Assembly: GCA_963169165.1 (NCBI GenBank)
Contig: CAUJFL010000372.1
Location: 1-49,863, forward strand
Direction of reading: 5' to 3'
Origin: Myxococcota bacterium
GTDB taxonomy: Bacteria; Myxococcota_A; Polyangia; Polyangiales; Polyangiaceae
Length of the DNA: 49,863 bases
The position numbers and the translations under genes are program-made. Position 1 is the first letter of the stretch, and every line of letters starts with the position of its first letter. Below the pieces are notes generated by a model. That model searched no databases. It was given only the letters and a program-made list of their open reading frames with translations, and had not been told where the DNA came from. This document shows, piece after piece, positions 42,671 to 45,395 of this stretch.

Positions 42671-43240
42671 ATGGCGAGGCCGTCGCTCTCGACGACGCTG
42701 CCGACGCGCAGGCTCCTGCTGCGTCCGCCGCGCACGAGCGACGTGCCGACGCTGCGCCGCGTGCTCCGCGAAAACGCGGAGCACCTGCGCCCGTGGAGCC
42801 CGGCGTCGACCGAGGAGGGCGGCCCGTCGCTGGTGTCGCTGACGCAGCTCGTGACGTCCCAGCGACGCGCCTGGCGCGACGATCGCAGCTACGTGCTGCT
42901 CGTGACCGACGTGACGACCGGCGACATCGTGGGTCGCGTGGCGCTGAGCGAGCTCGTGCGCGGCGTGTTTCAGAGCGCGTACCTCGGCTACTGGATCGAT
43001 CACCGCGTCGCCGGGCGTGGGCTGATGACCGAGGCCGTGTCGGCCGCGCTCGGGTTCGCGCTCGGCCCGCTCGGGCTACACCGCGTGCAGGCCGCGATCA
43101 TCCCGGAGAACGCGCCGTCCCTGCGCGTCGCGGCGAAGACAGGGCTGCGCGAGGAGGGGCTCGCGGTGCGCTACCTGAAGATCGCGGGGCGCTGGCAGGA
43201 CCACCGCATCTTCGCGATCACCGCCGAGGAGCTCACGTGA
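42671..43240 (+). CDS. GNAT family N-acetyltransferase (RimJ/RimL-like)
   Basis: RRLLLRPPRTSDVPTLRRVL; LGYWIDHRVAGRGLMTEAVSAAL; GLHRVQAAIIPENAPSLRVAAKTGLREEG. Confidence 0.88.
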   Translation: MARPSLSTTLPTRRLLLRPPRTSDVPTLRRVLRENAEHLRPWSPASTEEGGPSLVSLTQLVTSQRRAWRDDRSYVLLVTDVTTGDIVGRVALSELVRGVFQSAYLGYWIDHRVAGRGLMTEAVSAALGFALGPLGLHRVQAAIIPENAPSLRVAAKTGLREEGLAVRYLKIAGRWQDHRIFAITAEELT

Positions 43241-44537
43241 CGAAGCCGTCGGGGACGCGCGGGTGCGCGCGCGTCACGTGCTCGAGCTGCCGCCGGATGA
43301 CCGCTGTCGAGGTGTGGGCCGCGGCGGCGAGCCGCTCGAGCTCGTCGGGCTCGCTGAAATCCTCGGGGCGCAGGCGGATCATGTACGTGCGCGCGATGAG
43401 GTAGCGGTGGCTCGTGACGTCGACCACGCGGAGCTTCATTCGCCGCGTCGCCGGGTCGATCATCTCCGAGAACGGGATCGCCGTCACCCGCCCGCGCTGC
43501 AGCGACACCGTCGCGCCGCCGCCCCCCTCGGTGAGCAGCTTGACCGCGCCGTAGCCGAGGTCGCGGGTCAGCTCCATGTCGAACGGCACCGGATCGACGC
43601 AGCGCAGCTCGTAGCCGAAGGTCTTCGCGACGATAGGCGTCGTGACGCCGAAGCTCGCGAGGCGCTCCTCGACCCGGCGCTTCAACAGCTCGCCGAGCGG
43701 CACCTCGCCGAGGTGGACGCGCCCGTACGCGTCGCGGGACACCGCGCCGAGCCGCGCGAGCTCTTCCGGATCGAGCAGCGTGACCAGGCCCTCGGCGAGC
43801 ACGGCGATCCCGTCGCGTCGACCGTGCGCAAGGCGCTTCAGCACCGCGCCCGCGAGCACGTCGACCAGCAGGTTCATCGTCACGCGCGTGCCGGCGAACT
43901 CCTCGGGGACGAGCGTCAGCGTCGCGCCGACCGACTTTCCGATCCCGAGCGCGAGGTGCCCGGCCTTTCGCCCCATCGTCACCGCGAAGAACCACCGCGA
44001 CGTGGTCTTCGCGTCGACCATCAGCGAGCGCGCGATCTCGACGCCGTGGTGTCGCGCGGTCTGGTAGCCGAACGTCGGCGCCTCGTCGGGGAGATCGAGA
44101 TCGTTGTCGATGGTCTTCGGGACGTGGAGCGTGCGCACCGCGCCGGCGGCGCGCGCGTGGATCGCCGCCGCGGCCGAGCCCGTGCCGTCACCGCCGATGA
44201 CCACGAGCTTGTCGACGCCGATCTCGCGGAGGCCCGCGATGATGCGATCGACCTTGGCGAGATCGTTGCCGGGTCCGTCACGCGAGATGCCGATGTGGCT
44301 GCCCCCGCGGAAGTGGATGCGCCCGGTCTCGGCGATGCCGAGCGGCGCCCACTGGGTCGTGTCGCCGCGGAGCAGGTGATGGAAGCCGTCGGTCAGGCCG
44401 ACGACGTCGAAGCCCGACAGGCGCGCGCGGATCGTCGCGGCGCCCAGCACGCTGTTGATGCCGGGCGCGGGGCCGCCGCCGACGAGCAGCCCGACCTTGC
44501 CGGGCCGGACCGCCGCGGTGCGCGAGGGCTCGTCGAT
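43233..44537 (-). CDS. 6-phosphofructokinase family protein; non-canonical start proposed (ATC 44537) or readthrough product
   Basis: VGLLVGGGPAPGINSV, VVIGGDGTGSAAA, PKTIDNDLDLP, MGRKAGHLAL. The GTG at 44450 used by the ORF track lies after the conserved N-terminal glycine-rich motif. Confidence 0.82.
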   Translation of the reverse strand: MDEPSRTAAVRPGKVGLLVGGGPAPGINSVLGAATIRARLSGFDVVGLTDGFHHLLRGDTTQWAPLGIAETGRIHFRGGSHIGISRDGPGNDLAKVDRIIAGLREIGVDKLVVIGGDGTGSAAAAIHARAAGAVRTLHVPKTIDNDLDLPDEAPTFGYQTARHHGVEIARSLMVDAKTTSRWFFAVTMGRKAGHLALGIGKSVGATLTLVPEEFAGTRVTMNLLVDVLAGAVLKRLAHGRRDGIAVLAEGLVTLLDPEELARLGAVSRDAYGRVHLGEVPLGELLKRRVEERLASFGVTTPIVAKTFGYELRCVDPVPFDMELTRDLGYGAVKLLTEGGGGATVSLQRGRVTAIPFSEMIDPATRRMKLRVVDVTSHRYLIARTYMIRLRPEDFSEPDELERLAAAAHTSTAVIRRQLEHVTRAHPRVPDGFVT

Positions 44538-44540
44538 GGG

Positions 44541-45395
44541 TCAGCCCTCTTTGGTGAGCCGAGCGATCTCTTCCTTGATCAGCGTCTCGGCGAGCACGGG
44601 CACGACCTCCCACACGATCCGCTCGACGACGTCTCGCGACAGCGCGAGCACCGCGTCGGCCTGCGCGGGCGTCAAGCCGAGGCCGGAGAGCTTGTCGCCC
44701 ATCGCTCCGTTGACCGCGGCCGCGATCGGCGCGGCGACGACGGGGGCGGCGACAGGAGCGGACGGCGCGGCAGGCTTCGGCGCGACCGGGGGCGGCGCGG
44801 GCGAGGCGGCGGGCTTCGCGATGACCGGCGCGGCGGGCGGCCGCGGCGCGGCGGGCGCGGCGGGGCGCTGCACGGCGGGCGCGGAGGCGACGGCGGGACG
44901 CGGCGCGGGCGCGGCGGGCGCGATACCTGGCGCCTGCGTGCCGGGGATCGTCCCACCAGGGCCGGAGGGCATCGGCGGGCGCGGCGGCGCGGCGACCGGC
45001 GGAGGAGGCGCGGCCGTGTCGGGCATCGCCGCCTTCGCGGTCGACACCTTCTTCACGCGGTCGATCATCGCCTGCGTGTCGAACGGCTTGTCCGCGTGAT
45101 CGTCGGCGCCGCACCCGGTGCCCTTGGCCGCGTCGTACGGCGTCTGCTTCGACGACAGGAGCACCACCAGGATGCCGGGGACCTCGGATTTCAGGCTGCG
45201 ACACAGCGCGTAGCCGTCGGTCCCGGGGAGGCTCAAGTCGACGAGCGCGATCTGAGGTTTGTCAGATTTAGCCTTGGCGAGCGCGGCGTCGGCGCCGTCG
45301 GCCGAGATGACGCGAAAATCTTCGCCCGCGAAGGTTATCTCGAACACTTTGCGCATCGAGACGCTGTCGTCGACGGCAAGCAGGGTCGTGGTCAC
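44541..45395 (-). CDS. Receiver-domain response regulator with Ala/Pro-rich linker and conserved helical C-terminus
   Basis: TTLLAVDDSVSMRKVFEITF...ALVDLSLPGTDGYALCRSLK...DKPFDTQAMIDRVKK; C-terminal SRDVVERIVWEVVPVLAETLIKEEIARLTKEG; GTG start at 45395. Confidence 0.87.
   Translation of the reverse strand: MTTTLLAVDDSVSMRKVFEITFAGEDFRVISADGADAALAKAKSDKPQIALVDLSLPGTDGYALCRSLKSEVPGILVVLLSSKQTPYDAAKGTGCGADDHADKPFDTQAMIDRVKKVSTAKAAMPDTAAPPPPVAAPPRPPMPSGPGGTIPGTQAPGIAPAAPAPRPAVASAPAVQRPAAPAAPRPPAAPVIAKPAASPAPPPVAPKPAAPSAPVAAPVVAAPIAAAVNGAMGDKLSGLGLTPAQADAVLALSRDVVERIVWEVVPVLAETLIKEEIARLTKEG

Follow-up and report, generated by a model that had tools for sequence, protein, structure and literature searches.

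A phosphofructokinase gene lacking a canonical start codon behind a receiver gene in a Myxococcota genome: possible coupled initiation at ATC

On the minus strand of a 49,863-nt stretch of DNA from an uncultured Polyangiaceae-type myxobacterium (Myxococcota; hereafter the window, meaning the whole stretch that was analysed), a phosphofructokinase (PFK) gene lies immediately behind a response-regulator receiver gene and lacks a canonical start codon. For the sequence as given this absence is real, and it is rare for a PFK gene. The likeliest reading, to which we assign a probability of roughly 55%, is coupled initiation at an ATC codon (44537) after a recent gene relocation. The source assembly is a draft of 5.8 Mb in 479 contigs and is 84.6% complete.

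All features of the junction are encoded on the minus strand. The receiver gene (44541..45395) starts with GTG at 45395, preceded by the Shine-Dalgarno (SD) sequence GGAGG, and encodes a 284-aa protein that matches PF00072 (E 3e-19 in a Pfam profile search) and ends LTKEG-TGA. Its TGA stop (44541..44543), which is in frame with PFK only in the window and not in the sister species described below, is separated by CCC (3 nt) from ATC (44535..44537), the proposed PFK start codon, in the order ACC AAA GAG GGC TGA CCC ATC GAC GAG CCC TCG CGC ACC GCG GCG GTC CGG CCC GGC AAG GTC GGG CTG CTC GTC GGC GGC GGC CCC. An SD-like GAGGG (44545..44549) is located within the final codons of the receiver gene, with 7 nt between it and ATC. 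The first-pass annotation had reported this stop, the ATC in the same frame and the GAGGG 7 nt upstream, and re-reading of the minus strand found each of them exact to the base.

Counted from ATC, the PFK gene (43233..44537) comprises 434 codons and a stop. Positions 44460..44498 encode KVGLLVGGGPAPG, which forms the first strand of the enzyme and its glycine-rich loop, both conserved, and position 1 of the Pfam profile is the Lys at 44498, 13 codons after ATC. No ATG, GTG or TTG is found in frame on the minus strand of the window between the receiver TGA and the GTG at 44448..44450, so that the interval from the upstream in-frame stop to the conserved domain holds no canonical start; the sole AUN-type codon between the receiver stop and the PFK domain is ATC 44537. 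The GTG at 44450, the first in-frame canonical codon, is too far downstream for a start. The Pfam match begins at Lys 44498, in agreement with the earlier claim that a start at GTG 44450 would cost the enzyme its conserved KVGLLVGGGPAPG loop.

The window PFK matches PF00365 over profile positions 1-277 of 277, with an E-value of 1.6e-44 and 152.8 bits against a cut-off of 30.9. Its nearest curated model is PFKA_PPi_Ttgales. Like the Thermotogales-type PPi-PFK (PF00365/NF041103), it has a full-length domain, but its NF041103 score of 543.3 bits falls just under the curated cut-off of 550, suggesting a relative that, as a near miss on score, is not filed as a member. The protein (43233-44537) reads GGDGT together with PKTIDND, which we take to be a mixed signature with regard to the phosphate donor. 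The reading frame is open across all 435 codons in the window, and dN/dS between the window and the sister species is 0.20; these sequence measures indicate an intact PFK gene that evolves under purifying selection.

To see how PFK genes ordinarily start, orthologs were collected at the family, order and class level, together with genome contigs, and the nearest in-frame ATG or GTG was measured relative to the conserved Lys. Such a codon (75 ATG, 17 GTG) is present at −18 to −2 codons from the Lys in 92 of 94 distinct orthologs, and in 74 of those 92 it is at −6 to −3. The canonical start is missing in 2 of the 94 only, namely the window PFK and a contig-edge copy in genome G104. ATC 44537, at −13 from the Lys, lies further upstream than the −6 to −3 interval in which most orthologs start. 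None of the orthologs compared starts at the position of GTG 44450, and a PFK start at this codon was dropped from consideration, as it would delete a loop present in all of them. In the G104 copy (L057/L087, G104:C177, bases about 1-60), ATC stands where the close relative G099 has ATG; the copy begins ~30 nt from the contig end, and its ATC may be an end error.

The sole same-genus genome that we found is that of Polyangiaceae bacterium SJ398 (JADLFU010000043, G001), a MAG, which we refer to as the sister. Identity between window and sister is 87% for PFK and 92% for the receiver domain. The sister junction reads AAGGAAGGC TGA CCCC ATC GAC GAG CCC AGG GCG CGG GTG GTG CCA GGG AGG CTC GCG CTG CTC GTC GGC. 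Specifically, the sister has GTG GTG at −4/−3, the usual start position in the PFK family, where the window has GTC CGG; at codon −4 (44508..44510) the window thus differs from the ordinary arrangement by one base, GTC versus GTG, and this GTC is a candidate either for an alternative non-canonical start or for a base error. The missing canonical start is not conserved in this one same-genus genome. With GTG GTG at the sister's normal start position, the absence is private to the window genome, and a base error could account for it. The same two codons argue against ATC, as they would make it unneeded in the sister.

The first-pass annotation had held that an ordinary start in relatives would overturn its reading, and the sister bears this out by half: it has GTG GTG at −4/−3, but ATC GAC GAG CCC is identical there too. 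The conserved stretch, ATCGACGAGCCC (12 nt, starting at ATC), argues only weakly for ATC, because the two genomes also agree at ~87% of the noncoding bases that immediately precede the receiver gene (counted on the alignment), and we do not treat it as proof of an ATC start. Furthermore, two indels separate the junctions. The spacer from stop to ATC is CCC in the window and CCCC in the sister, a 1-nt indel that does not keep the frame and leaves the sister PFK out of frame with its receiver, while a second indel, 6 nt long and located between ATC and the domain, preserves it.

Paired with a 16S tail taken as ACCUCCUUA, an assumed sequence rather than one read from the window's genome, GAGGG yields −6.3 kcal/mol at 7 nt from the window ATC and GGAAGG yields −7.5 kcal/mol at 7-8 nt from the sister ATC; the values for the competing codons are −3.6 kcal/mol (first GTG of the sister) and −2.2 kcal/mol at 14-17 nt (GTC 44510 of the window). 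ATC 44537 thus has an SD at working distance, and the predicted pairing energies favour ATC over the alternatives in both genomes. The GAGGG overlaps the receiver coding sequence, and the match may be incidental because its bases are also receiver-tail codons.

Most relatives contain a single good match to the receiver gene. The receiver was found next to PFK only in the two genomes of this genus and not in the other ortholog loci examined; in relative G021 the two genes are > 2 Mb apart. The adjacency appears to be confined to the genus, as represented by its two genomes, in keeping with the rebuilding of a start region once the gene had moved. In several relatives the open frame 3′ of the receiver is one that, by its motif, we take to be valS. 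A derivation of ATC from a remnant of the valS start was considered and set aside, as no similarity was seen at the junctions. The receiver gene, whose product carries a Pro/Ala-rich linker and, at the C-terminus, the conserved tail WEVVPVLAETLIKEEI, occurs widely across the family (L146, L147, L150-L153, L157).

We infer from these observations that ATC is used as the PFK start. In the reading that we favour, PFK came to sit directly behind the receiver in this genus, and its start region would have been rebuilt from sequence present there. Ribosomes ending the receiver gene 3 nt upstream would restart at ATC 44537 to translate PFK, or, alternatively, new ribosomes may load at the GAGGG site before ATC. 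Coupling would offset the weakness of the ATC codon, and the PFK made would be ordinary apart from a non-conserved tail of 13 residues at its N-terminus. The distance from TGA to ATC, 3 nt in the window and 4 nt in the sister, fits a coupled pair only if ATC is the start. Between the two possibilities raised at first pass, ATC initiation and a readthrough fusion, the former stands as the best single reading, with ATC as the sole AUN codon, its SD at 7 nt (−6.3 kcal/mol) and the retention of ATCGACGAGCCC in the sister.

The alternative that survives best, although we consider it unlikely, is that the draft contains an error (of consensus or base) or records a minority strain variant, in which case the true codon at 44510-44508 would be GTG and would serve as the start. 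The sister codon at the same place, one base off, is indeed GTG, and orthologs often start at −4. Against such an error, the window has no SD before 44510 beyond the −2.2 kcal/mol pairing at 14-17 nt, though that of the sister is also weak; consensus errors at single bases are uncommon where contigs are covered; and in the PFK gene, with its frame open over 435 codons, no other sign of error was seen.

It is also conceivable, though we doubt it, that the genus keeps PFK under an AUC start that is weak by design and coupled to the receiver gene, so that PFK output would track both receiver translation and the level of IF3; the sister GTG would then be internal and ATC the true start in both genomes. 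The G104 PFK, with ATC for ATG, may be set beside this possibility, though it is at a contig edge.

A further and rather improbable explanation is that the PFK gene no longer has a start and is translated weakly, if at all; the second PFK of the genome would make such a loss tolerable. A higher-scoring PF00365 phosphofructokinase is encoded elsewhere in the window's genome (G000:C149:2628-3560) and is matched by a counterpart gene in the sister genome; the receiver adjacency, moreover, is recent. With the whole frame open and dN/dS at 0.20, any such loss must be very recent.

That GTC 44510 itself is the start, GTG having changed to GTC in this lineage, has a low probability in our assessment. 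The codon is orthologous to the sister GTG, and GTC initiation is documented for Streptomyces sigR, but that GTC has been termed the first documented case, and sigR has an extensive AGGAGGTG site whereas GTC 44510 has no SD at working distance (PMC5472188). UGA readthrough to a receiver-PFK fusion, also proposed at first pass on the frame that the two genes share in the window, is rejected as very improbable, because the sister spacer is one base longer (CCCC for CCC) and puts PFK out of frame, and because nearly all other orthologs have start codons of their own, with no receiver found beside PFK in them.

Non-canonical starts have precedents in bacteria. For infC, E. coli uses ATT and Streptomyces uses ATC; Streptomyces sigR starts with GTC, and IF3 represses the two genes (PMC5472188). 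Changes of start codon to CUG or AUU are extremely rare and amount to a handful among ~69,000 ancestral starts (PMC5622118). Restart downstream of a stop codon is IF3-sensitive, to a lesser degree where an SD is present (PMC2268962). Like infC, PFK has a proposed AUC start in an otherwise ordinary gene with an SD, but the unusual codon of infC serves autoregulation, whereas PFK has no such reason for one and the codon is not evidently required in relatives. The infC-like analogy drawn at first pass does not extend to infC of these two genomes (G000, G001), which starts with ATG in both, and the idea of a genus-wide ATC habit visible in infC was dropped.

PFK resembles sigR in its proposed non-canonical start within an operon, of a kind missed by gene callers, and GTC is here found at the position of the sister GTG (PMC5472188). 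A strong RBS, GTC or GTT kept in 34 Streptomyces and experimental proof are features of sigR, and none of them holds for PFK. The window PFK is accordingly a possible further case among the known non-canonical starts, not a proven one. To our knowledge, the studied cases of stop-restart coupling restart on canonical codons, which the candidate ATC is not. As in such coupling (PMC2268962), the proposed PFK start is 3 nt after the upstream stop and its SD is inside the upstream gene.

Bacterial starts beyond ATG, GTG and TTG that are established by experiment are few, and gene callers overlook such starts. In the present instance, standard calling would lose the first strand and the nucleotide loop of a conserved PFK enzyme. 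If ATC is used, the gene would place such a start in central metabolism, outside infC and the regulators, and would exemplify a start rebuilt once a gene came to sit behind another.
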